Below, piece after piece: positions 1 through 61,987 of a stretch of DNA of 64,000 nucleotides. The stretch is from Ramlibacter ginsenosidimutans (lineage in GTDB: Bacteria > Pseudomonadota > Gammaproteobacteria > Burkholderiales > Burkholderiaceae_C). The stretch's first letter is position 1. Each line of letters opens with the position of its first letter. The DNA is taken from contig NZ_JAEPWM010000004.1 in assembly GCF_016654015.1 (NCBI RefSeq), positions 62,001 through 126,000 of the forward strand, read 5' to 3'. The translations under genes were made by a program, and so were the position numbers. The notes beneath the pieces are model-generated. The model saw nothing but the letters and a program-made list of their open reading frames with translations, was not told the origin of the DNA and searched no databases.

Positions 1-1
1 C

Positions 2-850
2 GGGTGCGGCCTCATGGGCGGCTCGTTCGCCATGGCGATGAAGCGCGCGGGACTCGTCAAGCGGGTGGTGGGCTACAGCAAGTCCCCGTCCACGACCGAG
101 CGCGCGCGCCAGATGGGCGTGATCGACGTCGAGGCGCCCTCGGCATTGCTCGCCGTCTCGGGCGCCGACATCGTGCTGCTGGCCGTGCCGGTCGCGGCGA
201 CCGAGGCGACCTTCAAGGCGATCCGGCACCTCGTCACGGCCAACATGCTCGTGATGGACGTCGGCTCGACCAAGCGCGACGTCGTCGAAGCCGCGCACCG
301 CGTGCTGCGGGACCACGTGGCCTCCTTCGTGCCTGCGCACCCGATCGCCGGCAAGGAAGTCTCGGGCGTGGAGCATGCCGACCCGGACCTGTACCAGGGC
401 AAGCAGGTCATCCTGACCCCGACGGAGCGGACGCTGCCGGCGCACGTGCGGCGCGCGCAGGAGCTGTGGGAGGGCCTGGGCTGCCACGTGCACCAGATGG
501 CGCCCGAGTCGCACGACGCCGCCTTCGCCGCCGTGAGCCACCTGCCGCACCTGATCGCCTTCGCGCTGATGCACGGGATCCTGCACCAGTACAACGGCAA
601 GGAATTCCTCGGTCTCGGCGGACCCGGCTTCAAGGACTTCACGCGCATTGCCGCCAGCGACCCCAAGATGTGGCGCGACATCCTGCTGGCCAACCGGGTC
701 GAGCTGGTCGAGCAGGCCAAGATGTTCCAGCGCAGCCTGATGACCATGATGAAGCTGGCCGAGGACGGGGAGGGCGAGAAGCTCGAAGAGCTCATCACCG
801 AAGCGAGCAACGCCCGCGCGCACTGGCGCATGGGCCAGAAGCTGAAGTAA
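2..850 (+). CDS. tyrA: Prephenate dehydrogenase, 5' partial
   Basis: NAD(P)-dependent prephenate (or arogenate) dehydrogenase of tyrosine synthesis, cytoplasmic. The frame is open from base 2, so the start codon lies before the window. About 282 residues are present, close to full length, so only a few N-terminal residues are missing. It opens inside the Rossmann glycine loop (GCGLMGGS), and the family's prephenate-binding and catalytic stretch HPIAGKEVSGVEH is seen near base 335. It ends 27 bases before aroA on the same strand, the usual betaproteobacterial order. Prephenate versus arogenate specificity cannot be read from the sequence. Confidence 0.93.
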   Translation, partial: GCGLMGGSFAMAMKRAGLVKRVVGYSKSPSTTERARQMGVIDVEAPSALLAVSGADIVLLAVPVAATEATFKAIRHLVTANMLVMDVGSTKRDVVEAAHRVLRDHVASFVPAHPIAGKEVSGVEHADPDLYQGKQVILTPTERTLPAHVRRAQELWEGLGCHVHQMAPESHDAAFAAVSHLPHLIAFALMHGILHQYNGKEFLGLGGPGFKDFTRIAASDPKMWRDILLANRVELVEQAKMFQRSLMTMMKLAEDGEGEKLEELITEASNARAHWRMGQKLK

Positions 851-877
851 CAAGGGAGCGGCCCACCGGGCCCGTGC

Positions 878-2935
878 ATGTTCGCCACCGCATTCCTGGA
901 CCTGCCGCCGCTCGAGGAAGCCGCCGGCAAGGTCATCCTGCCCGGCTCCAAGAGCATTTCCAACCGCGTGCTGCTGCTGGCGGCCCTGTCGGAAGGCACG
1001 ACCGTCATCCACGACCTGCTGGAGTCGGATGACACGAAGGTCATGCTCGATGCGCTGAGGGCCTTGGGGTGCAGCGTGGTGCACAGTGGCCCTTCACTCG
1101 AGATCACGGGCTTCTCTCCTCCCCCCTCTGGGGGGAGGTCGGGTGGGGGGCGCTCGGCCCCGGAGCGCCCCCACCCCAACCCTCCCCCAAAGGGGGAGGG
1201 AGCAAAGAGGCTCTTCCTCGGCAACGCCGGCACCGCCATGCGGCCCCTCACGGCCGCCCTCGCCCTGCTCGGCGGCGATTACGAAGTCTCCGGCATCGCG
1301 CGCATGCACGAGCGCCCTATCGGCGACCTGGTCGATGCCCTGCGCCAGCTCGGCTGCCGCATCGACTACCTCGGCAACGAGGGCTACCCGCCGCTGCGCA
1401 TCCACCCGGCCGACGCCCTGCAGCTCGCCGCGCCGATCTCCGTGCGCGGGGACGTCTCCAGCCAGTTCCTCACCGCGTTGCTCATGGCCCTGCCCCTCGT
1501 GGCCACGCAGGACATCGTCATCGAAGTGGTCGGCGACCTGATCTCCAAGCCGTACATCGAGATCACGCTGAACATGCTGCAGCGCTTCGGCATCGCCGTG
1601 CGCCGCGACGGCTGGCAGCGCTTCATCATCCCCGCCGGCAGCCGCTACCAGTCGCCGGGCGAGATCCACGTCGAGGCCGACGCCTCCTCGGCCAGCTACT
1701 TCGTGGCCCTGGGCGCGCTGGCCGCCGTCGACCAGCCGGTACGCATCGAAGGCGTGGGCGCGGACTCGATCCAGGGGGACATCCGCTTCCTTGACGCCGC
1801 CCAGGCCATGGGAGCGCAGGTCACCAGCGGCCCCAACTGGCTCGAAGTGAAGCGCGGCGCCTGGCCGCTGAAGGCGATCGACCTGGACTGCAACCACATC
1901 CCCGACGCAGCGATGACGCTGGCGGTGATGGCGCTCTATGCCGACGGGATCAGCACGCTGCGCAACATCGCGAGCTGGCGCGTCAAGGAGACCGACCGCC
2001 TTGCCGCCATGGCGGCGGAGCTGCGCAAGCTGGGTGCAACGGTGGTGGAAGGCGCGGACTTCCTGCGCGTCGCACCGCCCGCCACCTGGACTTCGGCCGC
2101 GATCCACACCTACGACGACCACCGCATGGCCATGTGCTTCGCGCTGGCGGCCTTCAATCCGGCCGGCACGCACGTGCGCATCCTGGACCCCAAGTGCGTG
2201 GCCAAGACCTTCCCCGACTACTTCGAGGCGCTGTTCTCCGTGACCCGGACCGACGCTCCGCACATCCCGGTGCTCTGCGTGGACGGGCCCACCGCGTCCG
2301 GCAAGGGTACGCTGGCCTCGCAGGTCGCCCACCGGCTGGGCTACCACTACCTGGATTCCGGGGCGCTGTACCGCATCACCGGCCACGCCGCCGTCCACGC
2401 CGGCCTCTCGCTGGACGTGGCGCACGAGCACACCATCGCCAGGATGGCCGAGACCCTGCCCATCGTCTTCCACGCCGACCGGGTGCTGCTCGATGGCGTC
2501 GACGTGACCGATGCCATCCGTACCGAAGAGGCAGGCATGAACGCGTCCAAGGTGTCCGCCCTGCCCGCCGTGCGCACGGCGCTCGTGGCCCTGCAGCAGT
2601 CGTTCCGCAAGCTGCCCGGGCTGGTCGCGGACGGCCGGGACATGGGCACGGTGATCTTCCCGGACGCCCCGCTGAAGGTCTACCTCACGGCCAGCGCCGC
2701 CCAGCGCGCCGAGCGCCGGTATAAGCAATTGATTTCAAAGGGCATTCCGGCTACACTCCCCGCTCTTCGCGCGGACCTCGAGGCCCGCGATGCGCGCGAT
2801 TCCAATCGCGCCGTCGCCCCCCTCAAGCCCGCAGAAGACGCCCTCCTCCTCGATAACTCGGGCCAGTCGGTTGAAGAATCGGTGGCACAGGTCCTGAAGT
2901 GGTGGGATGAAAAGCAGGCTTTCGCCCCCAGGTAA
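878..2935 (+). CDS. aroA-cmk: Fused EPSP synthase / cytidylate kinase
   Basis: A 685-residue fusion. The N-terminal part (about 1-455) is 3-phosphoshikimate 1-carboxyvinyltransferase of the shikimate pathway, with [10 protein letters not shown] (21-30), [10 protein letters not shown] (114-123) and a late DDHRMAM. The C-terminal part (about 463-685) is cytidylate kinase, with the P-loop [11 protein letters not shown] (468-478) and an [14 protein letters not shown] stretch. Separate genes are the rule in most bacteria, and the fusion is known in some Burkholderiales. Residues about 80-110 are an insertion rich in Pro, Gly and Arg. It is encoded by a palindromic repeat and lies between the EITG strand end and RLFLGNAGT, without breaking the frame. 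rpsA follows, as it usually does after cmk. Confidence 0.95.
1115..1205. repeat. GC-rich palindromic repeat inside aroA
   Basis: Three stacked palindromes. A 9-base-arm hairpin lies at 1118-1138 (CCTCCCCCC, loop TCT, GGGGGGAGG). A long stem runs from about 1141-1155 to 1163-1177 (GGGTGGGGGGCGCTC against GAGCGCCCCCACCCC, one position imperfect). A second small hairpin lies at 1181-1199 (CCTCCCCC, loop AAA, GGGGGAGG). The same family recurs at 17872-18041, inside another gene, and at 55729-55830, between genes. Here it is a multiple of three in effect and carries no stop in the aroA frame. Confidence 0.85.
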
Positions 2936-2950
2936 GAAGTCTGCTGCTCC

Positions 2951-2983
2951 GTAGGCTGGCGGTGAGCACAGCGAACCCCAGCG
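2951..2983. repeat. Half copy of the GTAGGCTGG palindromic repeat
   Basis: The segment starts GTAGGCTGGCGGTGAGC and ends GCGAACCCCAGCG, matching one arm of the longer palindromes at 43493-43580 and 61915-61987. It lies in the 147-base gap between aroA-cmk and rpsA, where the rpsA promoter and leader would also have to be. The second arm is absent. Confidence 0.7.
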
Positions 2984-3082
2984 AAGAAGCAGTACCGAGG
3001 CCCCCGCCACTCCCTCCGCGCAGCAGCGCACCGGTGTCGGGGATCATCAACCCTAACCCCCGCGGGTCACACCGCAAACTCA

Positions 3083-4771
3083 ATGTCTGAATCCTTTGCC
3101 GCCCTGTTCGAGGAATCGCTGCAACGCGCCGAAATGCGCGCCGGCGAAGTCATCACCGCCGAAGTCGTCCGCGTGGAGCACAACCACGTCGTCGTCAACG
3201 CCGGCCTGAAGTCGGAAGCCTACATTCCGATCGACGAATTCAAGAACGACCAGGGCGAAGTCGAAGTGCAAGCCGGGGACTTCGTCTCCGTTGCCATCGA
3301 CGCCATCGAAAACGGCTACGGCGACACCATCCTGTCGCGCGACAAGGCCAAGCGCCTCGCCTCGTGGATGTCCCTCGAGAAGGCGCTCGAGTCCGGTGAG
3401 TTCGTCACCGGCACCACCACCGGCAAGGTCAAGGGCGGCCTGACCGTCCTGGTCAACGGCATCCGTGCCTTCCTGCCCGGCTCGCTGATCGACACCCGTC
3501 CCATCAAGGACCTGTCGCCCTACGAGAACAAGACCCTCGAATTCAAGGTCATCAAGCTCGATCGCAAGCGCAACAACGTGGTGCTGTCGCGCCGCGCGGT
3601 CGTGGAAGCGTCCATGGGCGAAGAGCGCGCCAAGCTGATGGAGACCCTGAAGGAAGGCTCCATCGTCCGTGGCGTGGTCAAGAACATCACCGAATACGGT
3701 GCGTTCGTGGACCTCGGCGGCATCGACGGCCTGCTGCACATCACCGACATGGCCTGGCGCCGTGTCCGCCACCCGTCCGAGGTGGTGCAGGCCGGCCAGG
3801 AAATCACCGCCAAGATCCTCAAGTTCGACACCGAGAAGAACCGCGTGTCCCTGGGCCTGAAGCAGATGGGCGACGACCCGTGGCTGGGCGTGTCCCGCCG
3901 CTACCCGCCGGGCACCCGCATGTTCGGCAAGGTCACGAACATCGCCGACTACGGCGCGTTCGTCGAGCTCGAGCCCGGCATCGAAGGCCTGGTGCACGTC
4001 TCCGAAATGGACTGGACCAACAAGAACGTGGCCCCGTCCAAGGTCGTGTCCCTGGGCGACGAAGTCGAAGTCATGGTCCTCGAGATCGACGAAGACAAGC
4101 GCCGCATCAGCCTGGGCATGAAGCAGTGCAAGGCCAACCCGTGGCAGGAATTCGCGCAGAACACCAAGCGCGGCGACCGCGTCAAGGGCCCGATCAAGTC
4201 GATCACCGACTTCGGCATCTTCGTGGGCCTGGCCGCCGGCATCGACGGCCTGGTGCACCTGTCCGACCTGTCCTGGAACGAGACCGGCGAAGCCGCCGTG
4301 CGCAACTTCAAGAAGGGCCAGGAAGTCGAGGCGATCGTGCTGGGCGTGGACGTGGACCGCGAGCGCATCTCCCTGGGCATCAAGCAGCTCGATGGCGACC
4401 CGTTCGCCACGTTCACCTCGGTGCACGACAAGGGCGCCACGGTGACGGGCAAGGTCAAGACGGTGGACCCGAAGGGCGCCGAGATCGACCTGGGCCAGGA
4501 CATCATGGGCTACCTGCGTGCCTCCGAAATCAGCCGCGACCGCGTGGAAGACGCGCGCAACGTGCTGAAGGAAGGCGACGAAGTCACCGCCGTCGTGGTG
4601 AACATCGACCGCAAGACGCGCAACATCCAGCTGTCCATCAAGCAGAAGGACATGATCGACGAGCAAGGCGCGATGGCGCAGCTGTCGCAGCAGTCCTCGC
4701 GCGAGCAGGCCGGCACCACCAGCCTGGGTGCGCTGCTGCGTGCCAAGCTGGATAACGCGGACAACAAGTAA
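3083..4771 (+). CDS. rpsA: 30S ribosomal protein S1
   Basis: A 562-residue ribosomal protein S1, the usual length for proteobacteria. It binds mRNA on the small subunit and helps load structured messages. Six S1 (OB-fold) repeats can be followed by recurring strings such as [40 protein letters not shown] and [20 protein letters not shown]. The first two repeats are the more divergent ribosome-binding ones. The N-terminus [13 protein letters not shown] is characteristic. It sits between cmk and ihfB, a highly conserved order. Confidence 0.98.
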
Positions 4772-4784
4772 GGGACTGGGGCCT

Positions 4785-4857
4785 AGGGGCTGGGGACTAG
4801 GGAGAGGCACGGCTGTTTGGCTGTTGCCCTAAGCCCTAGTCCCTGTCCCTAGCCCCT
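4785..4857. repeat. Inverted repeat between rpsA and ihfB
   Basis: The left arm around 4785-4802 (AGGGGCTGGGGACTAGGG) is complementary, with small gaps, to 4831-4857 (CCCTAGTCCCTGTCCCTAGC and flanks). The structure fills nearly all of the 95-base gap. It could attenuate rpsA readthrough or be another dispersed palindrome. There is no T-run to support a classical terminator. Confidence 0.55.
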
Positions 4858-4866
4858 CCTCAAGCA

Positions 4867-5172
4867 ATGACCCGATCAGACCTCGTCGAAGAACTGGCGG
4901 CCCGTTTCAGCCAGCTCACGCATCGCGATGCGGAATACGCCGTCAAGACGATCCTCGACGCGATGAGCGAGGCGCTGGTGCGCGGGCACCGCATCGAGAT
5001 CCGCGGCTTCGGCAGCTTCTCGATCAACCGGCGTCCTCCGCGCATGGGCCGCAATCCCCGTTCGGGCGAAAGCGTGCACATTCCGGAAAAGCGCGTTCCC
5101 CACTTCAAGCCGGGCAAGGCCCTGCGCGAGGCGGTGGACGAGCGGACGAAGGAAATGGAGTCGGCGGCGTAG
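4867..5172 (+). CDS. ihfB: Integration host factor subunit beta
   Basis: A 101-residue HU/IHF-family protein that pairs with IhfA to bend DNA at specific sites. It starts [14 protein letters not shown] and carries the family signature in [20 protein letters not shown] (about 59-78), including the proline of the arm that intercalates into DNA. The IhfB assignment rests on position after rpsA and on the MTRSDLVE start. The length is slightly above the E. coli protein through a short C-terminal tail. Confidence 0.95.
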
Positions 5173-5254
5173 CGTGGTGGGGGAGCCGCTGGCGAATGCC
5201 TCGCATGCCGCCCCAGCCTACAATTCCGGGCGACCGAGGAGCCCAGGAGCCGAA

Positions 5255-5545
5255 TTGAAATATCTCGCATGGCTGCTCAAGGCAGCCATTTTTTTTACCC
5301 TGTTCGCTTTCGCGCTGAACAACCAGCAGGACGCGACCGTGCACTTCTTCTTCGGCACGGCGTGGACCGCGCCGCTGGTGCTGGTCGTCCTGGTCGCCTT
5401 CGCGGCCGGACTGGTGGTGGGCGCGCTGGGCATGGTGCCGCGCTGGTGGAAGCACCGCAAGGCGGCGCGCGTCGCCGCGCCGGCGGACACGCAGCACGCG
5501 CCGAGCACGCTGATCGGCCAGGGCACGCCTCCGAATGGACTTTGA
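5255..5545 (+). CDS. lapA: LapA-domain inner-membrane protein (DUF1049)
   Basis: A 96-residue protein with two hydrophobic segments (WLLKAAIFFTLFAFAL and WTAPLVLVVLVAFAAGLVVG) followed by a basic tail, as in LapA, which works with LapB in LPS assembly control. I chose the TTG at 5255 (KYLAWLLKAAIFF follows). It has AGGAG five bases upstream and begins where the family begins. A GTG at 5174 would add 27 residues with no family resemblance. It overlaps lapB by 11 bases. Confidence 0.85.
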   Translation: MKYLAWLLKAAIFFTLFAFALNNQQDATVHFFFGTAWTAPLVLVVLVAFAAGLVVGALGMVPRWWKHRKAARVAAPADTQHAPSTLIGQGTPPNGL

Positions 5546-6668
5546 CCTCACCTGGCTGTTGTGGGGCCTGCCGATCGCCTTCGGCCTGGGCTGGCTCGCC
5601 TCGCGCCTGGACCTGCGGCAGCTGCGCATCGAGAACCGGCTCGCGCCCAAGGCCTACTTCCGCGGCCTGAACTTCCTGCTGAACGAACAGCAGGACCAGG
5701 CCATCGACGCCTTCATCGAGGCGGTGCAGAACGACCCGGACACCTCCGAGCTGCACTTCGCGCTCGGCAACCTGTTCCGCCGCCGCGGCGAGTACGAGCG
5801 CGCGGTGCGCGTGCACGAGCACCTGCTCTCGCGCGCAGACCTCTCGCGCGAGGACCGGCACCGCGCGCAGCACGCGCTCGCGCTCGACTTCCTGAAGGCG
5901 GGCCTGCTCGATCGCGCCGAAGAGGCGCTGCGCAAGCTGGAAGGCACCGCCTACGAGGAGCAGTCGCTGCTCGCCCTGCTCGCCATCTACGAGCGCTCGC
6001 GCGACTGGGTGCAGGCCTCGGACATTGCCCGCAAGCTGGACGCCGCCAGTCCCGGCCAGTTCGCGGCCCGGCAGGCGCATTACCTGTGCGAGCAGGCCGC
6101 GAGCGCCGCGCCGGCCGCGGCCGAACAGCTGCTGGAGAAGGCCATCAAGGCCGCGCCGCGGTCGCCGCGCCCCCGCATCGAACTGGCCGCGCTGCGCCAC
6201 CGCGCGGGCGACCCGCGCGCGGCGTTCGAGCTGCTGAAGGAAACGGCCGCAGCGGTGCCGACCTCCATCCCGCTGCTGGCGCAACCCATGGCGCAGGCCG
6301 CGCTCGCCAGCGAGCGCCGCGAGGAAGCGGCGCAGTTGCTGCGCACCAGCTACGAGGCCACGCCGACGCTGGACGTGCTGGACGCCCTGGCGGCGCTTGA
6401 CACCGACCCCGCGGTGGCGCGCGACCGCTACGTGCAGCACCTGCAGCGCGAGCCATCGCTGGTCGCGGCTTCGCGGTGGCTCGCCGGCGAAAAGCTCGAG
6501 CACGAGCAGTTTCATCCGGACGTGCAGCGCGCACTCGACCATGCCGTGAAGCCGCTCACCCGCTACCGCTGCGCGGCCTGCGGCTTCGAATCCAAGCAGC
6601 ATTTCTGGCAGTGTCCCGGCTGCCAGGCGTGGGACTCCTATCCGCCACGCCGCGTGGAAGAGTTATGA
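5535..6668 (+). CDS. lapB: LPS assembly protein LapB (TPR plus rubredoxin-like domain)
   Basis: A 377-residue protein. An N-terminal membrane anchor (TWLLWGLPIAFGLGWLASRL) is followed by a series of TPR-like helices. It ends with a four-cysteine metal knuckle, CAACGFESKQHFWQCPGC. This is the LapB/YciM architecture and usual length. LapB regulates LpxC proteolysis, and so lipid A synthesis, from the inner membrane. The neighbours fit: lapA directly before, and heptose genes rfaE1 and rfaD after. Confidence 0.94.
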   Translation: MDFDLTWLLWGLPIAFGLGWLASRLDLRQLRIENRLAPKAYFRGLNFLLNEQQDQAIDAFIEAVQNDPDTSELHFALGNLFRRRGEYERAVRVHEHLLSRADLSREDRHRAQHALALDFLKAGLLDRAEEALRKLEGTAYEEQSLLALLAIYERSRDWVQASDIARKLDAASPGQFAARQAHYLCEQAASAAPAAAEQLLEKAIKAAPRSPRPRIELAALRHRAGDPRAAFELLKETAAAVPTSIPLLAQPMAQAALASERREEAAQLLRTSYEATPTLDVLDALAALDTDPAVARDRYVQHLQREPSLVAASRWLAGEKLEHEQFHPDVQRALDHAVKPLTRYRCAACGFESKQHFWQCPGCQAWDSYPPRRVEEL

Positions 6669-16518: not shown

Positions 16519-16612
16519 GGACGCAGAAGACGCAAAGGACGCAGAGGACGCAAAGGAATCCATTGAAGGATTCTTTTGCGTCCTTTCTCCTTTTTGCGAC
16601 CTCTGCGTCCGG
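16519..16612. repeat. CGCAGAGG-family inverted repeat, copy 1
   Basis: The left arm is a run of 9-base units like GACGCAGAG/GACGCAAAG (16519-16559). The right arm has the complement (TTTTGCGTCCTTT, then CGACCTCTGCGTCC, to 16612). The tip of the hairpin is GGAATCCATTGAAGGATTC. It lies between the helix-hairpin-helix gene and the end of the convergent oxoprolinase gene. Relatives are at 24410, 49065, 53376 and 58790. Confidence 0.85.
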
Positions 16613-16643: not shown

Positions 16644-20420
<3,777 letters not shown>

Positions 20421-30074: not shown

Positions 30075-30193
30075 GGAGCCTCCCGAGGGTTTGGGGTCGA
30101 CCGCGCCGATCGCCCGGTCCGCGCCCATTCTTGGAGGCGAGTTCCGCGCGCGGCTTGGGTCAAACCCGCAGACGCGGGCTCATTCGCCGGAAT

Positions 30194-30231
30194 TTCTCAA
30201 AATGGAACACGCTGTCCCGCAAGCGGACAGC
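30194..30231. promoter_or_regulatory. Candidate activator site upstream of the PQQ dehydrogenase
   Basis: TTCTCAAAATGGAACA (30194-30209) is identical to 42255-42270 upstream of coxS, in the same orientation relative to the gene. It is followed by an inverted repeat GCTGTCC-N7-GGACAGC (30211-30231). It lies 119 bases before the dehydrogenase start and just after the permease gene's stop. The half-site style TTC...GAA suits a Fis-type activator; this is inference. Confidence 0.6.
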
Positions 30232-42158: not shown

Positions 42159-42254
42159 GGGATCTGTCTCCTTGGGGACGGACTGGCATTGTTGAATTGC
42201 GCCCCGCTCCCCTGCTCAGGCCAAACCCTAGGTGGGCCGGGCACTGGCGGGAAA

Positions 42255-42270
42255 TTCTCAAAATGGAACA
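42255..42270. promoter_or_regulatory. Candidate activator site between coxS and the GAF-Fis regulator
   Basis: TTCTCAAAATGGAACA is identical to 30194-30209 upstream of the PQQ dehydrogenase and in the same orientation to its minus-strand target. It lies 96 bases before coxS and 53 bases before the divergent regulator gene, so it could serve both. A further small palindrome GACACTGTC lies near 42291. Confidence 0.62.
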
Positions 42271-55711: not shown

Positions 55712-55728
55712 GCGCCGCGCCTTCAAAC

Positions 55729-55830
55729 TCCCTCCCCCTCCGGGGGAGGGTTGGGGTGGGGGCGCCCGGCGGACCGCGATACCAGCGCCGCATGCCCTCA
55801 CCCCGACCCTCTCCCAGGGGGAGAGGGAGG
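55729..55830. repeat. GC-rich palindromic repeat pair between exporter and nrsF
   Basis: The left half at 55729-55768 (CTCCCTCCCCCTCCGGGGGA, then TGGGGTGGGGGCGCC) and the right half at 55792-55830 (CCTCACCCCGACCC, then CTCTCCCAGGGGGAGAG) are inverted, about 25 bases apart. Same family as 1115-1205 and 17872-18041, here in its ordinary place between convergent genes, where it could act as a terminator. Confidence 0.85.
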
Positions 55831-55862
55831 AAAACCGGGTGCTGCTGCGCGCTAACGCCCGT

Positions 55863-57688: not shown

Positions 57689-58705
57689 TCACACGACGTG
57701 CTGGGGCGCCAGGGCGCAGGCGGCGCCGGTGCTGGCCACCTCGATCTGCAGGGTGGCGTGGTGGATCGCGAAGTGCTGCGACAGCCGCTGGCAGGCGTCG
57801 TGCAGGAAGGCGTCGCCGGGGTGGCCGGCGGGGATCACCAGGTGCGCCGTCAAGGCATTCTCCGAGGTGCTCATCGCCCAGATGTGCAGGTCGTGCACCT
57901 CGGTGACGCCGGGCAAGGCGCCCAGCCAGTCGCGCACCTCGCCCGTGCGGATGCCGGCCGGCACCGCCTGCAAGGCCAGGCGCAGGGACTGGCGCAGCAG
58001 GTCCCAGGAGCTCCAGAGGATCACCGCCGACACGGCCAGCGTGAGCGCCGGGTCGAGCCAGTTCCAGCCGGTGAACATCACGGCCGCGCCGGCGATCGCG
58101 ACCGCCAGCGACACGGCCGCATCGGCCGCCATGTGCAGGTAGACGCCGCGGATGTTGAGGTCGTCGCGGCCGCCCATGAAGAGCCAGGCCGTCACGCCAT
58201 TCACGACGACGCCGGCCAGGGCCACCCAGATCACGATGACGCCGTCCACCGTGCCGGGGTGAGGCAGGCGCCGCAGCGCCTCCCAGCCGAGGGCGCCGGT
58301 CACGAGCACCAGGGCCCCGGCATTCATCAATGCGGCGAGGATGGAACTGCCGCGCAAGCCATAGGTGAATCGCTCGCTGGGCGGTCGGCGCGCCAGTCCG
58401 GCCGCGCCCCAGGCCAGCAGCAGCGCCAGCACGTCGCCGAAGTTGTGGACCGCGTCCGCGATCAGGGCGAGCGAATGCGCCAGCGCGCCGAACGTCCATT
58501 CGGCGATCACGAATCCGATGTTCAGCACGCAGCCGATCGCGAAAGCGCGGCCGAAGGAGGCGGGCGCGTGCGCGTGCGAGTGGCCCAGGCCGTGGCCATG
58601 GCCATGGCCGTGGTCATGGCCACGGCCACGGCCGTGGTCATGGCCGTGGTCATGGCCGTGGTCTTGGCCGTGTGCGTGCCCGTCGTGGTCGTGTCCTGCC
58701 GTCAT
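57689..58705 (-). CDS. Cation diffusion facilitator metal exporter (CzcD/ZitB-like)
   Basis: A 338-residue CDF transporter that exports zinc, cobalt or similar ions in exchange for protons. A histidine-glycine-aspartate-rich N-terminus of about 45 residues precedes six membrane segments. The metal sites HNFGD (segment 2) and HMAAD (segment 5) and a C-terminal cytoplasmic domain are present. Start ATG 58705 (MTAGHDHDGHAHG). The His-rich region is encoded by a near-tandem hexamer DNA repeat. The specificity is unproven. Confidence 0.94.
   Translation of the reverse strand: MTAGHDHDGHAHGQDHGHDHGHDHGRGRGHDHGHGHGHGLGHSHAHAPASFGRAFAIGCVLNIGFVIAEWTFGALAHSLALIADAVHNFGDVLALLLAWGAAGLARRPPSERFTYGLRGSSILAALMNAGALVLVTGALGWEALRRLPHPGTVDGVIVIWVALAGVVVNGVTAWLFMGGRDDLNIRGVYLHMAADAAVSLAVAIAGAAVMFTGWNWLDPALTLAVSAVILWSSWDLLRQSLRLALQAVPAGIRTGEVRDWLGALPGVTEVHDLHIWAMSTSENALTAHLVIPAGHPGDAFLHDACQRLSQHFAIHHATLQIEVASTGAACALAPQHVV
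58589..58671. repeat. Tandem hexamer repeat coding the His-rich tail
   Basis: About thirteen near-identical six-base units of the type GGCCAT/GGCCGT/GGTCAT run through the CDF gene and encode alternating His, Gly and Asp on the minus strand. Slippage at such an array can change the length in frame, by two residues per unit. Confidence 0.7.
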
Positions 58706-61812: not shown

Positions 61813-61914
61813 GGGGCCGCCATGCTACTGGCATCCGCGGCGGGAGACAGGCGGGGCTTGCGAGCTATGAACGCAGGTGCATAGCACCGGGCGTGCGCGG
61901 GGGTTCCGTCACAC

Positions 61915-61987
61915 GTAGGCTGGTGGTGAGCGAAGCGAACCCCAGCGCTGCGCGCATCGCTGGGGTTCCTGCGTCACCCCAGCCTAC
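61915..61987. repeat. GTAGGCTGG palindromic repeat, full copy
   Basis: Arms GTAGGCTGGTGGTGAGC and TGCGTCACCCCAGCCTAC with inner GCGAACCCCAGCG and CGCTGGGGTT form a hairpin of about 73 bases. It lies between divergent tupB and its putative regulator, so it separates their promoters. Same family as 43493-43580. Confidence 0.85.

Follow-up and report, generated by a model that had tools for sequence, protein, structure and literature searches.

The aroA-cmk gene in the window, by which we mean the whole 64,000-nucleotide stretch of Ramlibacter ginsenosidimutans DNA analysed here, carries a dispersed palindromic repeat (family A) within an open reading frame, and across the genus the same AroA loop (site 1) holds repeats of different families, whose distribution is scattered over the tree of the host genomes. 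In-frame intragenic REPs are already known, as described in PMC3733652; what is new is the re-occupation of one enzyme loop by several repeat families across a genus. We consider it very probable that non-autonomous palindromic repeats enter a permissive AroA loop in frame, and that the active families hit such tolerant loops repeatedly.

The host gene spans 878..2935 (+ strand), with a frame that is open across the whole interval, and encodes an EPSP synthase fused to a (d)CMP kinase. The bifunctional assignment comes from PRK11860 (1161.8 bits against a cut-off of 943, NCBIfam), and further domain models match TIGR01356 and TIGR00017 (NCBIfam) as well as PF00275 and PF02224 (Pfam). The named relatives of this AroA belong mostly to Ramlibacter, together with one Caenimonas, one Aquabacterium and some Burkholderiales, and the nearest named loci are from Ramlibacter. 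The family A repeat lies in frame at 1113..1206 (+), roughly residues 80-110, as delimited by genome matches, inverted repeats and the alignment of inserts. The inverted-repeat search resolved two perfect inner hairpins of 9 bp with a 3-nt loop, at 1118..1138 (arms 1118-1126 and 1130-1138) and 1180..1200 (arms 1180-1188 and 1192-1200), inside an outer inverted repeat at 1111..1207, whose 45-nt arms (1111-1155 and 1163-1207) are 78% complementary. The RNA fold of 1108-1210 has a z of -3.66 and was equalled by none of 200 shuffles, and the aligned A inserts end in MITE-like terminal inverted repeats (GCTCCTCC / GGAGGGAGC). The first-pass annotation had put the added segment at about 31 residues, a figure that has to be lowered: counted from PGSKS to NAGT, this loop has 98 residues where the usual one has 76, a net gain of 22, and about 31 is the length of the whole replaced stretch. 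Six sub-threshold Rfam matches to microRNA families were obtained in window positions 1-6000, four of them on the repeat; all are far under their gathering scores and were rejected as chance matches on a GC-rich hairpin.

In the AlphaFold2 model of AroA-Cmk (48 sequences, mean pLDDT 86.4), the insert is placed between strands 73-77 and 110-116, and the sole segment with pLDDT below 50 comprises residues 83-106, a low value that is partly due to the few aligned sequences covering the insert. The core of the model matches EPSP synthases such as 7tm4 and 1g6s, and the LFLGNAGT motif presumably contributes to the PEP site.

Sixty genomes of the genus were searched, with an AroA-query match in 56 (in G017 to the repeat part only), and 55 AroA loops were read, including that of the window. 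Thirty-eight of them are short (net -2 to +3), and the other 17, the window's among them, contain repeats or remnants belonging to at least four families, with net changes of +22 to +49 in ten, +7 in five, and +4 and +1 in two. The insert is thus not the single case, unique to this AroA, that had been supposed at first. Related species with this same loop but free of repeat-like DNA had been named as possible counter-evidence; what we found is that the loops without a repeat are short, and that the 17 longer or altered ones match a family by similarity score, firmly in 13 cases and probably in four. Nine of the 17 inserts are self-complementary beyond all 200 shuffles, and that of G056 beyond 196 of 200; the seven short ones do not exceed their shuffles in self-complementarity and were recognised solely by their similarity to a family. 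In G049 the aroA gene is broken into two frames 3' of the loop, which we take for a sequencing error in an assembly that is 63% complete.

Outside the genus, the best 80 of 595 AroA loci comprised three Ramlibacter records and 77 others, whose net loop length relative to 76 is -1 to +2 in 68, +4 to +6 in four, +9 in one and +12 in three, one loop being unread; by eye, no repeat was seen at site 1 in these 77 loci. A survey of the bacterial family with an antisense aroA reading as query matched 116 of 120 genomes, although some of the matches may not be aroA and their lengths are rough. Twenty of these loops were read (16 with long or split matches and four arbitrary ones; 18 by pattern and two by eye), and no repeat was seen by eye at site 1 in this chosen set. 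One genome from another genus of the family (G145, L314) has a tandem APGAPD expansion, a simple repeat, in the turn before the site 1 strand.

By similarity, family A occupies site 1 in G000 (the genome of the window), G027, G025, G043, G055, G045 and G021, family B in G011 and G001 and probably in G056 and G022, family C in G004, and family D in G029, G046 and G049 and probably in G014 and G036. In an in-register alignment of five A inserts, the other four match that of the window at E ≤ 1e-4, and the full-size A inserts have a common junction, so some of them could stem from one ancestral insertion. Pairs of inserts were scored against 300 shuffles, on stretches that include short native flanks, which may add likeness. 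Within families, the three A pairs tried, the B pair G011/G001 and the D pairs G029/G046 and G029/G049 scored above all 300 shuffles, and the D pair G046/G049 was reached by one. Between families, firm A-C and A-D pairs are within chance (score reached by 124 to 285 of the 300 shuffles) and C-D pairs near chance (33, 38 and 272); firm B-D pairs show a slight likeness (2 to 68), and the probable D insert of G014 is like C (4). By eye, a GTAG tag stands next to the stem in family B (GTAGGGTGG...) and a CGTC tag in family D (CGTCATTCCCGCG...), and the five aligned A inserts have neither tag at their ends. The window also holds two family B half-elements from the repeat search, one between cmk and rpsA at 2950..2983 (CGTAGGCTGG...GCGAACCCCAGCG, assigned to B by eye) and a second, 91% identical to it, at 61914..61947, which also gave a genome match at C21:123915-123944.

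The first-pass annotation had described the insert as a dispersed palindromic repeat, and this was borne out by the genome matches together with the open frame and the inverted repeats. In its own genome (5.33 Mb, 26 contigs) family A gives at least 51 matches (E ≤ 0.001, 40 of 56 candidates scored), a number that takes in aroA itself and some places matched on both strands; the stretches read contain 40 separate places. Further family A places in the window, identified by genome match, lie at 17883..17918 and 17992..18041, not flagged as in frame, and at 55728..55833, with a coding signal on neither side. The earlier suggestion that the repeat be sought in other coding genes proved fruitful, in that a codon-usage test flagged ten of the 40 places as in frame within ORFs, and on inspection three more lie within ORFs (L238 and two in L230). 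By NCBIfam or Pfam, the ten hosts are AroA-Cmk, PurL, MetG, ThrC, LipB, UvrA, an RluC/RluA-type protein, IleS, an MsbA-like ABC transporter and an allantoate amidohydrolase fusion, where for MsbA, RluC and the allantoate amidohydrolase fusion the most specific model stayed under its cut-off. For family C in G004, five of 17 places are in frame, three of them within one ORF, the 17 coming from 12 regions plus aroA, out of about 40 places listed.

Wherever both flanks code on one strand, the repeat keeps the frame: ten family A places are in frame and none out (7/0 and 11/0 at other flank lengths), and for family C the numbers are five and none. The chance of obtaining 15 of 15 is about 7e-8, assuming free phase and independent cases. 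Of the family A frames, 229 of 240 are open, so that this family is nearly free of stops by composition; for family C the figure is 66 of 102. Since the frame is kept so strictly, and bypass would not need frame keeping, translation of the insert is favoured over bypass. Proteins with such inserts were classified by eye among the 120 best-scoring of 8000, and one and the same family is read there in different frames (VIPAQAGTQ, HWAPASAGVT, LDSRLRGND, PWIPA); these 120 are all full-length ORFs and so cannot reveal broken frames. The same kind of insert is present in many assemblies and metagenome proteins.

The supply of each family was then compared between carriers, with counts that take in both strands and are lower bounds for the large families (40 candidates scored); for family A the DNA count covers G000 only. 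Family C has at least 78 matches in its carrier G004, three in G043 and none in G000. The D core is found at least 121, 65 and 70 times in the firm D carriers G029, G049 and G046, at least 58 and 35 times in the probable carriers G014 and G036, and only eight times in G000; a reversed-pattern control gives 4 to 11 per genome. For family B, the G011 version has at least 91 matches in G011, at least 52 (mostly half-length) in G000, seven in G001 and one weak match in G056, and the G001 version at least 87 in G001 and none in G056. The local family of the loop is thus abundant in the genomes counted, with the exception of G056 when queried with these two versions of B. The occupant is not simply the commonest family, since G000 holds A in the loop though B is about as frequent there.

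In order to place the occupants on a tree, we used concatenated TyrA-RpsA-AroA-Cmk sequences without the loop, which represent one linked locus with a bootstrap that is not fully settled, and in which five rows, that of G001 among them, are under half filled. A clade of 16 genomes (support 100/99) comprises 15 carriers and G058, and two carriers, G004 (C) and G043 (A), fall outside it. All five two-genome forks within this clade join different occupants. In two of these sister pairs both assignments are firm, G021 (A) with G049 (D) (100/100) and G029 (D) with G001 (B) (100/99), and in three at least one side is probable, namely G000 (A) with G036 (probably D; 99/97), G025 (A) with G022 (probably B; 100/100), and G056 (probably B) with G014 (probably D; 100/100). 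Parsimony, which is blind to gain versus loss, requires 13 changes of family identity with all assignments and nine with the 13 firm ones (11-13 and 7-9, respectively, over 1000 bootstrap trees), and four changes for presence or absence of the insert. Among carriers alone, ten changes are needed with all assignments and six with the firm ones, and the family labels are no more clustered than shuffled labels (ten changes against a shuffled mean of 8.7).

Other loops and other enzymes present a similar picture. One loop of LipB contains at least three kinds of peptide (A-like, F-like and VIPGxTRDPWIAG-like; 27 of 30 loci read, by eye), F being a further repeat family, and in UvrA an A insert in G000 and a C insert in G004 occupy the same place, the G004 ORF being matched to UvrA by eye; judged by eye, these two loops are re-occupied in the manner of AroA site 1. 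The UvrA-like ORF of G004 (L250, C21:3000-9000; 1741 residues, open at the end of the stretch) has three separate in-frame C inserts. ThrC shows A/F-like peptides in several species (30 of 30 loci read, by eye), and as these are the only kinds seen we claim no change of family there. AroA itself has a second site (1499..1513, + strand), empty in the window and read in 51 of the 55 genomes, with inserts labelled E, which we take to be a dispersed repeat, of 27-28 residues in G002, G007 and G029 and of 16 in G019; ThrC and this site are hit repeatedly by alike peptides. A third place in AroA carries 28 residues in G056 and seven in G019. In a scan of the TyrA, RpsA, AroA and Cmk columns of the genus, site 2 and this third place were the only insertions of at least six residues outside site 1, the scan using the best tblastn piece per gene, with incomplete rows and the ends left out. 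In G168 (L328), from another genus of the family, a family E-like insert was observed at AroA site 2, and in G004 a long ORF that resembles a transcription-repair coupling factor by eye (L249, C323:6500-10600) contains an in-frame C insert.

On these data we propose that 1113-1206 would be a non-autonomous palindromic mobile repeat of the REP/REPIN-like kind that entered a permissive AroA loop in frame and would be translated into a disordered, Pro/Gly-rich linker running from the strand ending at residue 77 to the strand carrying LFLGNAG. From the frame keeping and the model we infer that the insert is translated and tolerated by the folded AroA; mobility, indiscriminate insertion and the order of events are inferred as well. 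Repeats would insert indiscriminately as to gene, and purifying selection would retain only frame-preserving, stop-free insertions in length-tolerant loops. Whichever family is amplifying in a given genome would supply fresh insertions, so that the same tolerant loops would be hit again and again, and older occupants would shrink or be displaced. As a candidate mover, G000 contains one tyrosine transposase gene of the Y1_Tnp type (L139, C1:201725-202018), whose 3.3-kb locus has two weak matches of 22-26 nt to family A and no match to family B. By eye, this gene lies between inverted GGTCAGATTCCAATT stretches, without clear family A or B flanks.

It may also be, though we hold this only tentatively, that a loop once occupied becomes a lasting landing pad, in or beside whose resident later repeats insert and which they replace without a short state in between. 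This would account for loop presence being inherited (four changes) while family identity turns over (nine changes with firm assignments, 13 with all). The G055 loop, in which a second hairpin, of family F, lies beside A, would be a step of such a replacement; 23 further F matches occur in G055, two of them in the stretch containing its lipB, and A and F inserts are somewhat alike. If loops do behave as landing pads, the family found in a loop would record which selfish repeat was active in that lineage.

A target at the DNA level, with the repeats recognising a sequence or structure in aroA so that the site is hot through its DNA and not through the tolerance of the loop, would agree with the use of nearly the same junction by different families and with the one UvrA site that holds A in G000 and C in G004. 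We consider it unlikely, as the modelled position in a loop and the exclusively in-frame state point, if only indirectly, to selection. It is improbable that the inserts are adaptive and tune the activity, stability or partners of EPSP synthase: they are retained in 15 of the 16 genomes of one clade and in frame in all cases read, but sister species have different peptides, a single family can even be read in more than one frame, and 38 of the 55 loops in the genus do without any insert. A single ancestral insertion in the clade, diverged until it resembles different families, is in our view largely refuted and very improbable. The few changes in presence or absence, the insert or remnant in all but one member of the clade and the common junction of the full-size A inserts would fit it, but the firmly assigned A, C and D inserts show no likeness to one another above chance, C was not found and the D core is scarce in G000, and the C insert of G004 and the A insert of G043, which both lie outside the clade, need separate origins. 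Finally, an insert that is bypassed or removed and so remains untranslated, for which the strong predicted RNA hairpin might speak, or one that results from an assembly error, is scarcely credible given that none of the 15 flanked cases is out of frame, a constraint that bypassing would not impose, and that the same kind of insert recurs in many assemblies and in metagenome proteins.

The insertion of selection-filtered repeats into tolerant loops, which we prefer, has parallels in several known systems. Intragenic GTAG- and CGTC-tagged REPs, often dimers, have been described within the ORFs of core genes (uvrA, tRNA synthetases, pseudouridine synthases), are proposed to lie in linkers or loops, and include in-frame cases in several phyla, in Thauera for instance (PMC3733652). 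Like the repeats described here they are short, palindromic and located in core genes, and by eye families B and D carry these tags, whereas family A of the window has neither tag. Different REPs at about the same site are described there for recB of two Xanthomonas species, but such a common site is exceptional there, whereas the Ramlibacter loop holds several families across the genus and sister genomes differ. Neither "Ramlibacter" nor "aroA" occurs in the main text of that paper, and among open-licence papers we found no report of repeats in Ramlibacter or of several families that re-occupy a single loop across a genus.

The likeness to the palindromic elements of Rickettsia, already remarked upon in the first-pass annotation, agrees with the dispersal, the in-frame hosts, the frame test and the model. 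Those elements are palindromic, dispersed, in frame in conserved genes and solvent-exposed in models (PMC2229807, PMC3767692); like the repeats here they are dispersed and in frame in conserved genes, although they belong to another bacterial class and are likened to the repeat of the window by description alone. In RPE-1 to RPE-3, orthologues carry one and the same group at similar positions, while for RPE-4/6/7 the groups differ nearby, and the authors favour a common origin without excluding hot spots (PMC3767692). On that question Ramlibacter provides a clear hot-spot case, because the occupants come from recognisably different families, most of them dispersed in the carrier genome. Wolbachia palindromic elements are likewise protein-coding palindromic repeats, in one gene with a region common with an RPE (PMC3767692), and they too are likened to ours by description alone. 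In the mitochondria of Magnusiomyces, palindromic elements also interrupt protein genes, and they are transcribed and bypassed in translation (PMC6649704), whereas here the frame keeping argues for translation.

Selfish DNA seems to land repeatedly in a few tolerant enzyme loops. The site 1 inserts amount to a naturally occurring set of loop insertions in an enzyme of well-known structure, which makes the cost of selfish DNA inside proteins directly measurable, and loop repeats of this kind may account for odd stretches, Pro/Gly-rich or of the VRPEPVEG/VIPAQAG type, in the annotated enzymes of this group.

Some further observations concern the same genomes. A second, more distant AroA-like match, with 41% identity, is present in G004 (L145, C398). 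In the window, dispersed repeats of the CTCTGCGTCCTCTGCG type, a further family, occur at 16520, 24445, 49046, 49146, 53359, 53479, 58771 and 58860, and two copies (86%) of an AT-richer 29-nt stretch, CATTCGCCGGAATTTCTCAAAATGGAACA, lie at 30181-30209 and 42242-42270. In addition, positions 58581-58676 consist of a 12-bp tandem repeat (TGGCCATGGCCG-like), visible as six 36-nt copies in register at 12-nt steps.
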